Assembly (NCBI GenBank): GCA_001768565.1
Contig: MEOE01000019.1
Span: 238-64,237, forward strand
Source: Bacteroidetes bacterium GWF2_33_16
GTDB taxonomy: Bacteria; Bacteroidota; Bacteroidia; Bacteroidales; UBA12077
Direction of reading: 5' to 3'
Length of the DNA: 64,000 bases
The notes beneath the pieces are model-generated. The model was not told where the DNA came from. It saw nothing but the letters and a program-made list of their open reading frames with translations, and made no database searches. The position numbers and the translations under genes were made by a program. Shown here in pieces: positions 19,093-27,815 of this stretch. Each line of letters begins with the position of its first letter. Position 1 is the first letter of the stretch.

Positions 19093-19692
19093 ATGGCAAT
19101 TAAGTTTCAATATAATAAAACAGCATTACAGCAGCTAAATAAACAACTCAAAGTTAGGTTGCGTGCTTTACCCACTCTTCAGAGTAAAGAAGCAGCTTTA
19201 CGAATGGAAGTAAAAAGAGCTAAAGATCAGTCTGACGAGTTGCTTCGAAAGCTTACTGCCCGAATGAATGAGTACGAAACAATGGTTCGTCTTTGGGGCG
19301 AATTCGATACAAGTCTGGTAGTAGTAAAAGATGTTCAAATGTCTGTGAAAAAAATTGCTGGTGTAAAAATCCCATTATTCGAAAATGTATTATTTGATAT
19401 TAAAGAATTTAGCCTTTTTAACAATCCTAGCTGGTATTTAAGTGGTGTTCAGATTATTGAATCGCTGGTGAAAATATCTCTTGAAAGTGAATTCTTTTTA
19501 TATAAAATGCAGTTACTTGATTTTGCACGAAAGAAAACTACTCAAAAAGTGAATCTTTACGAAAAGGTACAGATTCCTGGATACGAAGAAGCAATTTCGA
19601 AAATTAAACGATTCCTCGAGGATGAAGAAAATCTTTCGAAATCAGCTCAAAAAATTGTTAAAACTAGACAACAACAGAGGGAGGTAGCATAA
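19093..19692 (+). CDS. V-type ATPase subunit D (central shaft)
   Basis: Subunit D is the rotating shaft inside the A3B3 head. The 199 residues show the expected long N-terminal helix (KTALQQLNKQLKVRLRALPT), a middle globular part and a long C-terminal helix. No gene for subunit F, which normally caps D, is found in the operon. The last codons overlap a strong ribosome site: GGAGGT at 19680-19685, six bases before the ATG of subunit I, and the stop overlaps that ATG by one base. Confidence 0.92.
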   Translation: MAIKFQYNKTALQQLNKQLKVRLRALPTLQSKEAALRMEVKRAKDQSDELLRKLTARMNEYETMVRLWGEFDTSLVVVKDVQMSVKKIAGVKIPLFENVLFDIKEFSLFNNPSWYLSGVQIIESLVKISLESEFFLYKMQLLDFARKKTTQKVNLYEKVQIPGYEEAISKIKRFLEDEENLSKSAQKIVKTRQQQREVA

Positions 19693-21473
19693 TGGTTTCT
19701 CCAATGATAAAATATTCGTTTCTGATTTATTATAAAGAGTATATAACGTTTCTCGAAGAACTCCAGAAACTAGGAATGCTTCATATAATTGAAAAAACGA
19801 AAGAAATAAATGATCATATCAAACAATCTTTATTTGAAGTTAACGAAATAACTAAAGTCATTAAATTTCTTGAAAAACGAAATCAACTTCCTGCTACATT
19901 TGACGATCAGGTTGACGGAATAGCAATTGTTGAGAAAACAAGAAATATGATTGAAGAATTATCATTAATTGATCAGGAACAAATAACATTAAACAAAGAA
20001 ATACAGAAAGCAAAACCATTCGGGAATTTTTCTTTAGAGACCAAAGAAAAATTTGAGAAATTGAAAATCAGGTTTCGGTTTTTTATATGCAATGAGAAAA
20101 AATTTAAAGAATCATGGAAGACCGATTATTATCTTGAGGTAATAAATAAAATTGGTGGATCTATATATTTTGTTGTTCTTCAGCTAGAAGATCAACTGAT
20201 CGAAATTGATGCTGAAGAAATAAAAATGCCAGACGAAACATTGTTGGATCTGCAGAATAAATACAATAAAAACAACGAGCGAGTTGAAATAATTCAAAAT
20301 GAATTTGATGATTTTGCCGCAAACTATATAGAAATACTTTACAAAACGAGAGGAAAAGTTCAAGCAAAAACCGATTTTCATCTAGCAATTAATCATACCG
20401 AAATGCAAGCAGAAGAAAAGGTTATGTTTCTTGAAGGATGGATCCCAGAGGAAAAGAAAGAAGACCTCGAGAGGTTTCTAAATCAACAAACTGTTGTTTA
20501 TTTATCTGCAAAACCAACAAAAGACGATAAGGTGCCAATTCTTTTGAAAAACAATAAGTTTGCCAAATTATTTGAGCCAATTGGAAGTCTGTTCTCATTA
20601 CCGGATTATGCAGAATTAGATTTAACACCATTTTTCGCACCATTTTTTATGCTTTTTTTTGGTTTTTGTGTGGGTGATACTGGGTATGGACTAATTATGT
20701 TAATTGCTACTTTGGTTTTAAGAAATAAAGTAAAACCATCATTTAAACCCTATTTAACACTTGCCTCTTATTTGGGAATATCAACAATAATTATGGGGAT
20801 GGTTTCAGGAACTTTTTTTGGACTTAACCTTGCCGATTTTGAATTTATAAAGTTTAAGGATCTATTCTTACAACCATTGATGATGTTTTATCTTGCTGTA
20901 GCTATCGGCTTGGTGCAGATAATTTTCGGTATGTGCATTAAAGCAGCAAATCAAATTAAACAAAATGGATTTAAATATGGTTTATCAACCATTGGATGGA
21001 TTACTCTTATTTTAACATTAGTAGTTTTTGTTGGCGGGGATAAAGCTGGTATTAATCTGGCTGGATTGTCAATTATAAAGACAATTTTATTAATTCTAAG
21101 TATGGGATTGATTTTATTATTTAATAACCCTGATAAGAATATTTTTGCGAATCTAGGTCTGGGAATATACGACTCCTATAATATGATAACAGGTGTTTTT
21201 GGTGATTTACTTTCGTATATTCGGTTATTTGCATTAGGTATTTCCAGTTCAATATTAGGCCTGGTATTTAATCAAATTGCATCTCAATTTTTAAATATTA
21301 AATATTGGGGATGGTTACCATTTATTTTATTATTACTAATAGGTCATGGATTAAATATATTTTTAGCATGTTTGGGTGCATTTGTTCACCCCTTGCGATT
21401 AACATTTGTTGAATTTTATAAAAACGCTGGTTTTAATGGCGGAGGAAAACAATACAAACCATTTTCAAAATAA
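19692..21473 (+). CDS. V-type ATPase subunit I (membrane stator, subunit a homologue)
   Basis: Subunit I provides the two half-channels through which ions reach the rotating ring. The first 310 residues are a soluble arm with coiled-coil stretches; the rest holds about seven membrane helices. The C-terminal domain has the family signature PFFMLFFGFCVGDTGYG and, in LSYIRLFALGISSS, the arginine that faces the ion-binding glutamate of the ring. At 593 residues it is slightly shorter than many homologues but has all parts. The start overlaps the stop of subunit D by one base and has a Shine-Dalgarno-like GGAGGT upstream. Confidence 0.95.
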   Translation: MVSPMIKYSFLIYYKEYITFLEELQKLGMLHIIEKTKEINDHIKQSLFEVNEITKVIKFLEKRNQLPATFDDQVDGIAIVEKTRNMIEELSLIDQEQITLNKEIQKAKPFGNFSLETKEKFEKLKIRFRFFICNEKKFKESWKTDYYLEVINKIGGSIYFVVLQLEDQLIEIDAEEIKMPDETLLDLQNKYNKNNERVEIIQNEFDDFAANYIEILYKTRGKVQAKTDFHLAINHTEMQAEEKVMFLEGWIPEEKKEDLERFLNQQTVVYLSAKPTKDDKVPILLKNNKFAKLFEPIGSLFSLPDYAELDLTPFFAPFFMLFFGFCVGDTGYGLIMLIATLVLRNKVKPSFKPYLTLASYLGISTIIMGMVSGTFFGLNLADFEFIKFKDLFLQPLMMFYLAVAIGLVQIIFGMCIKAANQIKQNGFKYGLSTIGWITLILTLVVFVGGDKAGINLAGLSIIKTILLILSMGLILLFNNPDKNIFANLGLGIYDSYNMITGVFGDLLSYIRLFALGISSSILGLVFNQIASQFLNIKYWGWLPFILLLLIGHGLNIFLACLGAFVHPLRLTFVEFYKNAGFNGGGKQYKPFSK

Positions 21474-21483
21474 AAATAATTAA

Positions 21484-21489
21484 AAGGAG
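21484..21489 (+). promoter_or_regulatory. Strong Shine-Dalgarno site before V-ATPase subunit K
   Basis: AAGGAG lies 8 bases before the ATG at 21498. Most genes in this window lack such a site, which is normal in Bacteroidota. Subunit K is needed in about ten copies per enzyme, so a translation boost here makes sense. Confidence 0.6.
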
Positions 21490-21494
21490 AATAA

Positions 21495-21968
<474 letters not shown>

Positions 21969-21998
21969 GTAGAAACATCTATATATTTTTTTCGTATG

Positions 21999-22036
21999 AA
22001 AAGGCAGTACCTGAAAAAGGATTGCCTTTTTTATTC
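21999..22036 (+). terminator. Rho-independent terminator closing the V-ATPase operon
   Basis: Arms AAAAGGCA (21999-22006) and TGCCTTTT (22023-22030) with a 16-base loop are followed by more T residues. The hairpin stands between the V-type and F-type gene sets and so supports two transcription units. Confidence 0.75.
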
Positions 22037-22066
22037 ATTATAAAAACAATTTTACTTATTATTAGT

Positions 22067-22094: not shown

Positions 22095-23192
22095 ATGATT
22101 AAAGCTTGGCTTAAAATATTTTCTGTTTTGCTTCTATTGTTATTCTTTTCAAACATATCATTGGGAGAAGAAAAGCAAATAATTGCAGATACTTCTGAAC
22201 ATAAATTAGAGGAGAAGAAAAAATTCGATGTTGGTGAATTTATCTTTGATCATATTCTCGATCATTATGGCTGGCACATAATTACTTACAATCATAAGCA
22301 TATATCAATACCTCTACCGGTTATACTTTATAGCAATAATCAAGGCTGGATTAGTTTCTGGTCGTCAAAAATCGATCATGGTCATGTATATAAAGGATTT
22401 AAAATAGACTTAGAGGGTAAAAATAAAGGTAAAATTATTGAAATAAACCAAGATGGCGTATTTTTGGAAAAACCCTTTGATATTTCAATAACAAAAAACG
22501 TTTTAGCAATACTTATTAGTTCAACAATATTGTTATTTGTGTTTGTCTCAGTTGCCAAAACCTATAAGCAAAGGGTTGATATGCCTCCAAAGGGGTTGCA
22601 GTCGTTTCTTGAACCAGTAATATTATTTGTGCGTGATGATATTGCAAAATCATCTATAAATGAAAAAAATTACGAAAAATTTACTCCTTTTTTACTAACA
22701 ATTTTCTTTTTCATTTTGTTGAACAATTTAATGGGATTGGTACCATTTTTCCCTGGAGGTGCTAATGTAACTGGAAATATTACTGTTACGCTTGTATTGG
22801 CTTTGTTTACTTTTGTTATTACAACAATTAATGGAAACAAAGGATATTGGAAGCATATTTTTAATGCACCAGGAGTTCCTTGGTGGTTAAAAGTGCCACT
22901 TCCCCTTATCCCATTCATTGAATTAGCTGGCCTGCTTACAAAACCATTTGTTTTGATGATAAGGCTTTTTGCGAATATTTCTGCAGGTCATATTATTGTA
23001 TTAGGATTCTTTAGTTTGATATTTATTTTTGGAAACATAAATGCATATGCTGGATTTGGAGCATCTCCTGTAAGTATATTATTTACTATATTTATGTCAA
23101 TACTTGAATTACTTGTATCTTTTATACAAGCATATGTCTTTACTTTTTTATCAGCATTATATTTTGGAATGGCTGTTGAAGAGCATCATTAA
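22095..23192 (+). CDS. atpB: F-type ATP synthase subunit a
   Basis: Subunit a forms the proton half-channels next to the c ring. The C-terminal two thirds has five or six membrane helices and the essential arginine R290 in PFVLMIRLFANISAGH. At 365 residues it is about 100 longer than the E. coli protein: it begins with a signal-peptide-like helix (residues 1-24) and a hydrophilic, His-rich extension up to the next helix at about residue 136, which would lie outside the membrane on the periplasmic side. Long a subunits of this type are common in Bacteroidota. The gene opens the F-type operon after a terminator. Confidence 0.97.
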   Translation: MIKAWLKIFSVLLLLLFFSNISLGEEKQIIADTSEHKLEEKKKFDVGEFIFDHILDHYGWHIITYNHKHISIPLPVILYSNNQGWISFWSSKIDHGHVYKGFKIDLEGKNKGKIIEINQDGVFLEKPFDISITKNVLAILISSTILLFVFVSVAKTYKQRVDMPPKGLQSFLEPVILFVRDDIAKSSINEKNYEKFTPFLLTIFFFILLNNLMGLVPFFPGGANVTGNITVTLVLALFTFVITTINGNKGYWKHIFNAPGVPWWLKVPLPLIPFIELAGLLTKPFVLMIRLFANISAGHIIVLGFFSLIFIFGNINAYAGFGASPVSILFTIFMSILELLVSFIQAYVFTFLSALYFGMAVEEHH

Positions 23193-23221
23193 GAAGTTTT
23201 AATTCACTTAATAATTATATT

Positions 23222-23479
23222 ATGAGTACATTAGGTTTTATTTTATTAGCAATTGAAGGAGCTGCCATAGCAAAGCTTGGAGCTGGATTTGGAGCTGCAG
23301 TAGCAGCAATTGCTGCTGCATTAGGTATTGGCAGAATTGGTAGTTCTGCTATGGAGTCTATTGCCCGTCAGCCAGAAGCTGCCGGCGATATTCGCTCAAA
23401 CATGATTGTGGCTGCAGCTCTTATAGAAGGAGTTGCTTTCTTCGCAATTGTTGTATGTTTCCTTATTCTTTTTGTTTAA
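23222..23479 (+). CDS. atpE: F-type ATP synthase subunit c, predicted proton type
   Basis: An 85-residue hairpin of two membrane helices with the polar loop ARQPEA (48-53) that touches the rotor foot. The ion carrier is E69 in ALIEGVAFF. Sodium-type c subunits such as that of Ilyobacter have Q32, E65, S66, T67 and Y70; aligned on the loop and carrier, this protein has I36, E69, G70, V71 and F74. The sodium ligands are thus absent and proton coupling is predicted. A strong hairpin follows the stop codon before atpF. Confidence 0.97.
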   Translation: MSTLGFILLAIEGAAIAKLGAGFGAAVAAIAAALGIGRIGSSAMESIARQPEAAGDIRSNMIVAAALIEGVAFFAIVVCFLILFV

Positions 23480-23486
23480 GGATTAT

Positions 23487-23526
23487 ACTTTACAGCCTAG
23501 CGATTGGCTGGCTGTAAAGTTTTTTT
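23487..23526 (+). terminator. Terminator-like hairpin between atpE and atpF
   Basis: A perfect 11-bp stem (ACTTTACAGCC at 23487-23497 with its complement at 23510-23520) and 12-base loop is followed directly by a T-run. It has every mark of an intrinsic terminator but lies inside the F-ATPase operon, so it is probably a partial terminator or an mRNA 3'-end stabiliser for the upstream a and c genes. Confidence 0.75.
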
Positions 23527-23543
23527 AATTAATAGTATGAATT

Positions 23544-24038
23544 ATGGAACTTATTAAACCTGATATTGGACTACTCATCTGGATGATGGTATCCTTTGGT
23601 ATGGTAACTTTTCTATTGGTAAAATACGCATGGAAACCAATATTAAAGGCACTCAAGGAACGAGAAAACACCATTGAAAAAAGACTGTTGGCAGCAAAAA
23701 AAGCAAAAGACGAGCTGGCAAAAATTGAATTTGGAAACGAAAAAATTACGGCACTAGCAAAAATTGAGCGAGAAAATATGCTTAAAGAAGCCAAAGAGAT
23801 AAAAAATAGCATAATCGAAGAAGCTCGAACAGAAGCTAAAATAGAAGCTCGCAAAATTATTGAAGAGGCTAAAAAGGGAGTGGAAAAAGAAAAAGCTGAT
23901 GCCATTAATGAAATAAAAAACCAAATTTCTGAGTTATCAATAATTATTGCTCAGAAAATTCTTAAACACGAATTAGAACATAAAGAAAACCAAAAGCATC
24001 TAATTAATAAATTAATTGATGATATTGATCTAAACTGA
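23544..24038 (+). CDS. atpF: F-type ATP synthase subunit b
   Basis: Subunit b is the peripheral stalk that links the membrane part to the head. One N-terminal membrane helix (about residues 9-27) is followed by a long charged helix (KARE/AEAKIEARKIIEEAKK-type composition) to the end. Length of 164 is typical. Only one b gene is present, so a homodimer is expected. It begins 18 bp after the terminator-like hairpin and 15 bp separates it from atpH. Confidence 0.95.
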   Translation: MELIKPDIGLLIWMMVSFGMVTFLLVKYAWKPILKALKERENTIEKRLLAAKKAKDELAKIEFGNEKITALAKIERENMLKEAKEIKNSIIEEARTEAKIEARKIIEEAKKGVEKEKADAINEIKNQISELSIIIAQKILKHELEHKENQKHLINKLIDDIDLN

Positions 24039-24053
24039 TCCCAGTAACTATAT

Positions 24054-24620
24054 ATGTATCAGAGTCAAATAACAGTTCGATATGCAAAGGCATTATTTCT
24101 TCTAGCAAGTGAAAAAAATAAACTTGAAGAAGTAAAAAACGATATTGTCTTAATTTATGATACCTTAAAGCTTTCGTCAGACCTAAATACGTTACTTAAA
24201 CATCCGGTAATAAAATCATCAGAAAAAGTAAAAGCTCTTACTAATCTGTTCGGCTCACAAATAGACCCAATAACACTTACTTTTTTGGAATTGATTATAA
24301 ATAATAAAAGAGAAGCTTACATTGAACGTATGTTTCAAAATTTTATTAACATATATAAGAAAAGTAAAGATATAAATATAGCAGTGCTGACCACTGCACT
24401 TGAATTAACAAATGAAGAAAAGACAACTATTTTAAGAAATATTGAAAGCAAAACAAAATCTACAATTGAATTAAATCAAATAGTTGATGAGTCAATAATT
24501 GGAGGATTTATTCTTCAGATTGGTGACAAAGAAATAGATGTTAGCGTTTTAAAACAATTGCAAAGATTTAAGGAAAGTTTAATAGATATTGATTTGAATG
24601 TTAAAAAGAAAAAAAACTAA
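24054..24620 (+). CDS. atpH: F-type ATP synthase subunit delta
   Basis: Delta sits on top of the F1 head and binds subunit b. The 188-residue protein starts with the family pattern VRYAKALFLLASEKNKL, has the N-terminal helical bundle to about residue 105 and ends with the IVDESIIGGFILQIGDKEIDVSV segment typical of the C-terminal domain. It lies between atpF and atpA in the normal order. Confidence 0.95.
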   Translation: MYQSQITVRYAKALFLLASEKNKLEEVKNDIVLIYDTLKLSSDLNTLLKHPVIKSSEKVKALTNLFGSQIDPITLTFLELIINNKREAYIERMFQNFINIYKKSKDINIAVLTTALELTNEEKTTILRNIESKTKSTIELNQIVDESIIGGFILQIGDKEIDVSVLKQLQRFKESLIDIDLNVKKKKN

Positions 24621-24631
24621 AATAATACTAT

Positions 24632-26215
24632 ATGGCAGGAATTAAACCCGGCGAAGTATCAAAAATACTAAAACTTCAGCTCGAAGGATTTACTTCAAAT
24701 GCAGAACTTGAAGAAGTTGGTAGTGTTTTGCAGGTTGGGGATGGTATAGCCCGTATTTATGGACTATCATCGGTTCAATCTAATGAGTTAATTGAGTTTC
24801 AGAATGGAATGAAAGGGATTGTTTTAAATCTCGAAGAAGACAATGTGGGTGCCGTTCTTTTAGGATCATCTCAGGAAATTAAGGAGGGAGATAAGGTACG
24901 TAGAACTCGAAAAATAGCATCAATTAAGGTTGGTGAAAGCCTGCTAGGAAGAGTTATTAACACAATTGGTGAACCAATAGATGGAAAAGGTCCAATTAGC
25001 GGTGATTTATACGAAATGCCTTTAGAAAGGAAAGCACCTGGCGTAATCTTTAGACAACCTGTAAATCAGCCTATTCAAACCGGTATTAAACCAATCGATG
25101 CGATGATTCCTATAGGAAGAGGACAACGCGAACTTATTATTGGTGACCGCCAAACTGGTAAAACTGCGATTGCTATTGATACTATTATTAATCAACGCGA
25201 ATTTTACGACAAAGGAGAGCCCGTTTTTTGCATATATGTAGCAATTGGACAAAAGGGTTCTACAGTTGCAAATATTGCTCAAATACTTGAAAAACATGGA
25301 GCAATGGAGTATACTGTTATTGTTTGCGCCACCGCTTCCGAATCAGCAGCATTGCAGTTTTATGCTCCTTTTGCAGGCACATGTATTGGTGAGTATTTCA
25401 GAGATACTGGTCGCGATGCTTTAATAATCTATGATGACCTTTCGAAACAGGCTGTTGCATATCGTGAAGTATCATTATTACTTCGTAGGCCACCTGGCAG
25501 AGAAGCATATCCAGGAGATATCTTCTATTTACATTCCCGTTTATTGGAGCGTGCAGCACGTGTAATTGCATCTGATGAAATAGCGGCTCAAATGAACGAT
25601 TTGCCCGACTCAATAAGAAAAATAGTAAAAGGTGGAGGATCTCTAACCGCGCTGCCTATTATCGAAACACAAGCTGGTGATGTTTCAGCATATATTCCAA
25701 CGAATGTAATTTCGATTACTGATGGCCAAATTTTCCTTGAATCAGATCTCTTTAACTCAGGTATTCGACCTGGAATTAATGTAGGTATTTCTGTTTCTCG
25801 TGTTGGTGGCAATGCACAGATTAAAGCAATGAAAAAAGTCGCTGGTACACTGAAGCTAGATCAGGCTCAATATAGAGAATTGGAAGCTTTTTCAAAATTT
25901 GGATCAGACCTTGATGATGCTACAATGGCAATTCTCGATAAAGGATCAAAGAATGTTGAAATACTTAAACAAGGGCAATATTCTCCTATGCCAGTTGAAA
26001 AGCAAATAGCCATAATATATTGTGGTACAAAAGGACTGTTAAAAGATATTCCATTGGTAAAAGTTAAAGCATTCGAAAAGGATTTTCTTGAATTGCTCGA
26101 AATAGAATATCAGAGCATCTTAAGTCAATTAAAACAAGGTATTATTAATGATGAAATTACTCAAACTCTCGAGAGTGTTGCAAAAACAATAACATTGAGA
26201 TTTCAGAGTAAGTAA
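24632..26215 (+). CDS. atpA: F-type ATP synthase subunit alpha
   Basis: Alpha is the non-catalytic nucleotide-binding subunit of the F1 head. It has the N-terminal barrel ([14 protein letters not shown]), the P-loop [11 protein letters not shown], the ELIIGDRQ segment before it and the [17 protein letters not shown] stretch. Length (527 residues) is normal. The catalytic beta partner is not encoded in the window; in Bacteroidota atpD and atpC usually lie together elsewhere. Confidence 0.98.
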
Positions 26216-26228
26216 GCGAAACAAATAA

Positions 26229-27107
26229 ATGGGCAATTTAAAGGAAATACGATCGCGAATAACTTCAGTAAAATCAACACGGCAAATTACAAGTGCCATG
26301 AAAATGGTTTCTGCGGCTAAGCTTAAAAAAGCTCAGGATGCTGTTATTAATCTGCGTCCTTATTCTCATAAATTACATTTTATTTTAAAAGATATCTCAC
26401 AAACAATTGAAGGTGAAATTGAGAATATTTTTGCCCGAACCGACGAACCAGAAAAAATATTAATTGTTGCTGTTACATCAAATAAGGGCTTATGTGGAGC
26501 GTTTAATGCTAATGTTATAAAACAAGTTGTAAACCTTATATCAATTGATTTTGCAGGAGAATTTGCTGAAGGTAAAGGATCTATTATTTCGTTTGGCAAA
26601 AAAGGAACTGAATATTTTAATTCGAAGAATTACCCTGTTTTATTCTCAAATAATCATTTAATAGATCAGCTTAGTTATGAAAAAGCTCTTCCTTATATTG
26701 AGCAAATAATGAACTTATATATAACAAAGAAGATTGATAAAATTGTGTTAGTTTATAATAAATTTAAAAATGCTGGTGTACAGGTTTTAACAGTAGACAA
26801 TTTTTTGCCAATAGAAATAACTAAGCAGGAAGTTACGGAGGAACATTTCGATTATATTTTCGAACCTTCAAAAGAATATATTGTTAAAGAACTAATTCCC
26901 CGATCGCTTCGGCTACAATTATTTGAAGCGTTACTTGATTCGCTTGCAGCTGAACATGGTGCACGAATGACTGCGATGCATAAAGCTACAGACAATGCCT
27001 CCGAAATGATTAAATCACTTCAGTTAAACTATAATAAGGCCAGACAAGCATCTATAACAGGAGAAATTCTAGAAATTGTAGGTGGAGCCGAAGCATTAAA
27101 AAAATAA
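26229..27107 (+). CDS. atpG: F-type ATP synthase subunit gamma
   Basis: Gamma is the rotating shaft of F1. The 292-residue protein has both conserved helices: N-terminal LKEIRSRITSVKSTRQITSAMKMV-like start and C-terminal SEMIKSLQLNYNKARQASITGEILEIVGGAEAL. The middle has TSNKGLCGAFNANVI. It closes this F-ATPase cluster: 69 bp later an unrelated AlbA_2 gene starts, and there is no beta or epsilon gene. Confidence 0.97.
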   Translation: MGNLKEIRSRITSVKSTRQITSAMKMVSAAKLKKAQDAVINLRPYSHKLHFILKDISQTIEGEIENIFARTDEPEKILIVAVTSNKGLCGAFNANVIKQVVNLISIDFAGEFAEGKGSIISFGKKGTEYFNSKNYPVLFSNNHLIDQLSYEKALPYIEQIMNLYITKKIDKIVLVYNKFKNAGVQVLTVDNFLPIEITKQEVTEEHFDYIFEPSKEYIVKELIPRSLRLQLFEALLDSLAAEHGARMTAMHKATDNASEMIKSLQLNYNKARQASITGEILEIVGGAEALKK

Positions 27108-27176: not shown

Positions 27177-27815
27177 ATGAACCATTATATTCAGAATCTA
27201 ATTAGGCAGGGTGAGCATCAGCAACTTGACTTTAAACATTCCATTACTGATTCGAAAAAAATTGCACGTTCGCTGGTTGCTTTTGCAAATACCGATGGGG
27301 GAAAGTTGTTGGTCGGTGTTAAGGATAATGGGTCAATTTCAGGAGTGCGCGACGAGGAGGAGTTTTACATGGTGCAGGCTGCTGCGCAAATGTATTGCAA
27401 ACCTCCTTTAAACTTCGAATCGAAAATTTGGGAAGTAAATGATAAAACGATTCTTGAAATTACTATAGCAAAAAGCAATAATATAGTTTATGAAGCCCCA
27501 AATAAGGAGGGGAAGTGGATGGTTTATATACGTGTTAACGACCAAAATTTTACTGCAAACAAAATTTTATTAAAAGTTTGGCAAAAAAAGAAAAGTAAGA
27601 ATGGTGTATTGGTGCGATATTCTGAAATAGAAAAACAATTGTTCGAATATCTTTTAATAAGCCAGAAGATTACATTCTCAAAATTTAAGAAAATGACAAA
27701 AATATCTAAACCAAAGGCCGAAAAAATTCTTATAAACCTTATTGTTCTTAATTTGATTGAAATTGAATTTACAGAAAATCAAGTGTATTATAAAACATCA
27801 ACAAAACAGCAATAA
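27177..27815 (+). CDS. AlbA_2 (Schlafen-like) domain ATP-binding protein
   Basis: The first about 135 of 212 residues match the AlbA_2 domain: E/Q-x-LDFK near residue 17, IARSLVAFANTDGGKLLVGVKDNG and ISGVRDEEE. Such proteins are often called putative DNA-binding or ATP-binding; their biochemical role is mostly unknown, and some Schlafen relatives act on nucleic acids. A basic linker (WQKKKSKNG) and a winged-helix-like C-terminus (SQKITFSKFKKMTKISKPKAEKI) suggest DNA binding. It follows atpG by 69 bp on the same strand, which may be no more than proximity. Confidence 0.83.
   Translation: MNHYIQNLIRQGEHQQLDFKHSITDSKKIARSLVAFANTDGGKLLVGVKDNGSISGVRDEEEFYMVQAAAQMYCKPPLNFESKIWEVNDKTILEITIAKSNNIVYEAPNKEGKWMVYIRVNDQNFTANKILLKVWQKKKSKNGVLVRYSEIEKQLFEYLLISQKITFSKFKKMTKISKPKAEKILINLIVLNLIEIEFTENQVYYKTSTKQQ

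Follow-up and report, generated by a model that had tools for sequence, protein, structure and literature searches.

The hairpin that stands between atpE and atpF in the ATP synthase operon of the window (the whole 64,000-nt stretch of DNA analysed) is, on comparative grounds, a cis-acting RNA element of the ATP synthase messenger that is widespread in the class Bacteroidia. Comparison of its copies has shown that the stem is kept by compensatory change, that the C(GNUUG)G pentaloop is nearly invariant, that place and strand are fixed and that there is usually one copy per genome. A stem whose sequence is free, combined with a five-base tip that hardly changes, speaks for a site that is specifically recognised rather than for a plain transcriptional stop, and the hairpin probably helps the cell to make more c than b.

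The genes around the hairpin are ordered atpB-atpE-atpF-atpH-atpA-atpG, and it sits between an abundantly needed gene (c) and a weakly needed one (b), as is expected of an intercistronic stability element. In the window the outer stem consists of 11 perfect base pairs, to which sequence and fold add three inner pairs (Table 1); the earlier note was right in describing a perfect 11-bp stem followed by a T-run, here of seven residues, between atpE and atpF. The 12-nt loop it had placed on this stem does exist as a stretch, but it folds again into a bulge, an AGC/GCT stem and a GATTG pentaloop. Folding of the RNA from position 23470 to 23560 yielded −22.3 kcal/mol compared to −13.3 ± 2.6 kcal/mol for shuffled sequences (z = −3.5; none of 200 shuffles was as good), and related copies reach −20 to −25 kcal/mol, which is the kind of stable stem-loop that a rho-independent terminator would also have. 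The hairpin begins 8 nt past the atpE stop codon, ends 23 nt ahead of the atpF start and is present in a single copy in this genome. It was listed neither by a simple terminator scan of the window, most likely because the 12-nt stretch between the outer arms was counted as too long a loop, nor by an inverted-repeat search, probably owing to the chosen distance limit. With the covariance models of Rfam 15, neither the window nor five strong relatives gave a match at the hairpin, and a literature search, with most subscription papers outside its reach, found no described RNA motif of the atp operon in Bacteroidota.

The F-type operon itself (window 22095-27107) comprises the a, c, b, delta, alpha and gamma genes, with no beta or epsilon gene within the stretch. 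Directly upstream on the same strand lie V-type ATPase I and K genes (window 19692-21968 region), separated from the F-type operon by a T-run hairpin at about 21990-22040, and an AlbA/Schlafen-domain gene (PF04326; window 27177-27815) follows behind atpG, again on the same strand.

Table 1. Components of the atpE-atpF hairpin and the two adjoining genes, in window positions
Feature	Position	Strand	Basis and remarks
Upstream gene atpE (subunit c of the F-type ATP synthase, 85 aa)	23222..23479	+	ORF; PF00137, E 2.9e-15
Outer stem, 5′ arm ACTTTACAGCC	23487..23497	+	Sequence, fold; CTTTACAG unchanged in all 18 genus loci
Single-base bulge on the 5′ side (T)	23498..23498	+	Alignment, pair counts in both registers
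Inner 3-bp stem AGC (23499-23501)/GCT (23507-23509) with pentaloop GATTG (23502-23506), GNUUG family	23499..23509	+	
Outer stem, 3′ arm GGCTGTAAAGT	23510..23520	+	Sequence, fold
Run of seven T, the first T paired in the stem	23520..23526	+	Sequence; found in most of the genus, missing or weak in many of the other copies
Downstream gene atpF (subunit b)	23544..24038	+	ORF; PF00430, E 7e-22

Within the genus, the hairpin was found behind atpE on the same strand and in the same place in 18 of 20 genomes, that of the window included. One locus among the 20 (L021) is cut off at a contig end, and one genome (G013, locus L006) is without the hairpin; its gap instead holds an unrelated weak TGCCCAA/TTGGGCA hairpin. 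In the 18 copies the outer arm CTTTACAG/CTGTAAAG and the loop frame are invariant; a stem not conserved among close relatives, on which the earlier note would have abandoned its reading, is thus not what we find. In every copy the 5′ side of the stem has one base more than the 3′ side, at a position that shifts, and according to the pair counts the inner pairs vary with compensation. A model built from this set of hairpins (R1) detected one strong place per genome, always the atpE-atpF site, the other matches listed being either weak or due to the same palindrome on the opposite strand. The hairpin of the sister genus has one pair added. A second, divergent atpE-atpF locus in genome G007 (L022, G007:C75), whose c protein is 68% identical, has no hairpin and represents a possible contamination or second operon.

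In the order, the c protein served as query against 157 genomes, and the stretch downstream of c was inspected in the 28 loci returned and in 60 more. The stems are unrelated in sequence between genera yet perfectly or nearly perfectly paired, often over 12-19 bp, and carry the loop GGUUG or, more rarely, GAUUG, GUUUG or GCUUG, closed by a C-G pair inside an R-Y pair. A GNTTG pentaloop was present in 49 of the 64 order genomes in which atpE and atpF are at least 40 nt apart, a count for which the loci were picked by the c protein alone so that the loop was not selected for. The 41 hairpins of a further alignment (A4) were picked by their CGNTTGG core; the loop is therefore fixed by choice in this set and only the stem is a test. 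Here 93% of the stem cells are paired, with 230 two-sided changes, and the covariation score of 1.04 compares to 0.235 after shuffling and at most 0.24 in slid controls. Nearly all order-wide model matches with E<1e-3 (39/41) adjoin atpE. Conservation of the hairpin between c and b and covariation in its stem, which had been suggested as a check in related species, are consequently both observed, and far beyond close relatives.

A model built from the order hairpins (R2) was run on 218 genomes of the phylum and 296 of the class. In the phylum set, matches with E<1e-3 occurred only between atpE and atpF, and in the class set 26 of 28 newly fetched loci lay between c and b; weak matches (E>1e-3), located in unrelated genes, were taken as chance. 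Named carriers include Flavobacterium hydrocarbonoxydans, a Chitinophaga pinensis MAG and a Sphingobacteriales MAG. Cytophagales (Algoriphagus, Belliella, Marinoscillum) possess the same kind of hairpin with a GUUAG loop, and the loops of family f121 are GUUAG or GCUAG among others. Family f115 (L251, L257, L258, L263, L266, L267) has a separate conserved version of the atpE-atpF hairpin with ACAGG/AAAGG-type loops; most of its copies share the stem CTGCATCC/GGATGCAG and an inner GC(ACAGG or similar)GC loop, the sequence of the stem being conserved in this family in contrast to the GNUUG group. Mostly gaps of less than 40 nt and no hairpin are found in Bacteroides, Prevotella, Phocaeicola and Dysgonamonadaceae, and a hairpin of this pattern was not seen in 20 loci taken from other classes of the phylum. 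Since Bacteroides, Prevotella and their relatives do without it and one genome of the genus (G013) has lost it, the hairpin is not essential.

Hairpins and terminators in these genomes do not in general have a constant loop. Against a background drawn from the window and the fetched loci, none of 296 other strong hairpins of the same loci has a GNTTG loop, and the terminator that follows the V-type K gene within the genus has retained a strong T-run (at least five T in 15 of 15 scored copies) and has loops that vary in length and sequence. The pentaloop is, however, not exclusive to the atp operon, as a few T-run hairpins elsewhere carry it, and a stability advantage may hence be part of the reason for this loop. 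The few strong model matches at other places resemble sporadic terminators that share this loop, and the CGRTTGG type may also be a favoured terminator loop. Sporadic CGRTTGG-loop hairpins outside the atp operon, mostly followed by T-rich stretches, were noted in L302, L318, L319, L325 and L326; the genes upstream of such hairpins encode a sigma factor, an aspartase-like protein and others.

The resemblance to an intrinsic terminator, a strong stem followed by a T-run in many species, needs to be weighed carefully. If the hairpin were a partial (leaky) terminator, the polymerase would stop at the T-run in a fraction of passages, producing more a-c than b-gamma message, and the pentaloop would merely be fast-folding or stable. 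We consider this unlikely, although part of the evidence agrees with it. Besides the T7 of the window, T-runs of at least four residues follow the hairpin in 19 of 20 genus-group copies and in 50 of 85 copies outside the genus (about 59%; at least five residues in 26/85), compared to only 7 of 85 in the mirror stretch before the hairpin, so that leaky termination may contribute; the same loop also occurs now and then in hairpins with T-rich flanks outside the operon (L302, L318, L325, L326). Yet the U-tract is not kept across homologues as that of a rho-independent terminator would be: 35 of the 85 non-genus copies have no T-run of at least four, and many keep stem and loop with no U-tract at all (e.g. 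L052, L071, L086, L093, L101, L191). The true terminators in the neighbourhood, those of the K gene, behave in the opposite manner, with long T-runs throughout and freely variable loops, and not one of the 296 other strong hairpins uses the pentaloop. The hairpin also lies inside an operon, and a promoter-like TAnnTTTG of the Bacteroidota type was found behind it in none of 53 loci (11 of 263 in the background), which means that transcription of atpF to atpG has to pass through it. The earlier note had proposed a partial terminator or a 3′-stabilising hairpin, either of them giving an excess of a and c messages over the rest; conservation and covariation lend support to this pair of readings, and its terminator half is weakened by the incomplete T-runs and the missing promoter. 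The note had overlooked the nearly invariant GNUUG pentaloop, for which neither a bare terminator nor an exonuclease block has any need.

A translational element, separating the translation of atpE and atpF or binding a regulator that represses or activates atpF initiation, appears improbable. A position between a gene in very high demand and one in low demand would suit such a function, and a protein binding the loop would fit as well, but the geometry argues against it. The loop lies a median of 47 nt ahead of the atpF ATG (IQR 38-58), the stem of the window ends 23 nt before this codon and does not cover the start site, and the distance from the atpE stop codon to the loop varies less (median 25 nt, IQR 22-29), which anchors the hairpin to the c end and keeps the start of atpF unobstructed. 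Pairing of the loop with a CAACC site, either elsewhere in its own message or on a different RNA, has, in our estimate, only a very small probability. Complements of the loop do cluster in one upstream 60-nt bin inside the c gene (26 occurrences in 53 loci), but the cluster fits the Gln-Pro codons (CAA CCN) of the conserved RQPE motif and is thus explained by the protein sequence; in the window, CAGCCA at this place and a GATTG loop cannot pair, and in total 101 complements were seen where 78 are expected. A kissing partner within the same message was rejected, as the excess lies in these RQPE codons of c. Least probable of all, with a chance close to nil, is a mobile palindrome (REP or MITE-like) that settled between atpE and atpF by chance. 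The perfectly palindromic outer arms would be in keeping with such an origin, but instead of dispersed copies there is one copy per genome at the match level of the element, on the same strand and in the same place in several orders, with stem sequences unrelated between genera and none in viral contigs; this single-copy, fixed-place occurrence led us to reject it.

The explanation we favour, and which we hold to be about evenly balanced between right and wrong, is that of an intercistronic processing or 3′-protection hairpin, perhaps assisted by leaky termination, whose pentaloop would be read by a putative factor and which would raise a and c over b. The hairpin would mark where the a-c part of the message ends on its 3′ side, a role that its anatomy fits. 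The full atpBEFHAG transcript would be cleaved, or would partly terminate, immediately downstream of the hairpin, which would block 3′-5′ exonucleases, and the a-c (or c) piece would then outlive the b-delta-alpha-gamma piece, providing c in excess of b. Because neither an exonuclease block nor a bare terminator needs a conserved loop, the loop demands something more, most simply a reader protein or nuclease, and it could be the docking site by which a putative RNA-binding protein or nuclease singles out this hairpin among all others. More tentatively, and with clearly less than even confidence, we propose that a dedicated RNA-binding protein or nuclease of the Bacteroidia recognises the C(GNUUG)G hairpin behind atpE (of the GUUAG type in Cytophagales) and sets the c:b ratio. 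If true, this would amount to a class-specific post-transcriptional control of stoichiometry that is not in Rfam and was not found in the literature searched.

Hairpins that are read through a conserved loop are exemplified by the histone mRNA stem-loop and by the AGNN loops recognized by yeast Rnt1p. They likewise consist of a stem with a short conserved loop, and the histone stem-loop is also located just behind the coding region; these systems are eukaryotic, however, and their likeness to the atpE hairpin is one of working principle only. Among bacterial examples, the Rhodobacter puf operon also serves a ring-forming membrane protein. At malE-malF and in puf, the upstream gene is the one needed in abundance, and an intercistronic hairpin placed after it shields its segment of the message (PMC5927463). 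Those hairpins act as general exonuclease barriers, whereas the atpE hairpin has a pentaloop conserved across families and orders. Closest in gene and in logic of position is the F-ATPase c gene of Clostridium cellulolyticum, which undergoes selective RNA processing and stabilisation: it has processing sites at both ends and a message 3-5 times that of its neighbours, and stem-loops occur at the 3′ ends of abundant genes (PMC4423207). This organism belongs to another phylum, the accessible part of the report describes no conserved loop, and the mechanism was proven there by northern blot, whereas the evidence here is a comparison of sequences. The kind of element, an intercistronic hairpin that tunes expression, is thus already known, and the atp version with its GNUUG loop is absent from Rfam 15 and was not found in the literature searched.

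How ten or so c subunits per two b are obtained out of one operon is a classic question. In E. coli it is mostly answered by translation rates, and Bacteroidota depart from the usual rules of ribosome binding. In the Bacteroidia, an element kept across several orders is positioned exactly at the c/b border, and the constancy of its loop would imply a specific reader. The hairpin may accordingly provide a handle, by way of stem versus loop mutants, on message processing as a means of stoichiometry control, and could equally serve as a bait for a Bacteroidota RNA-binding factor.
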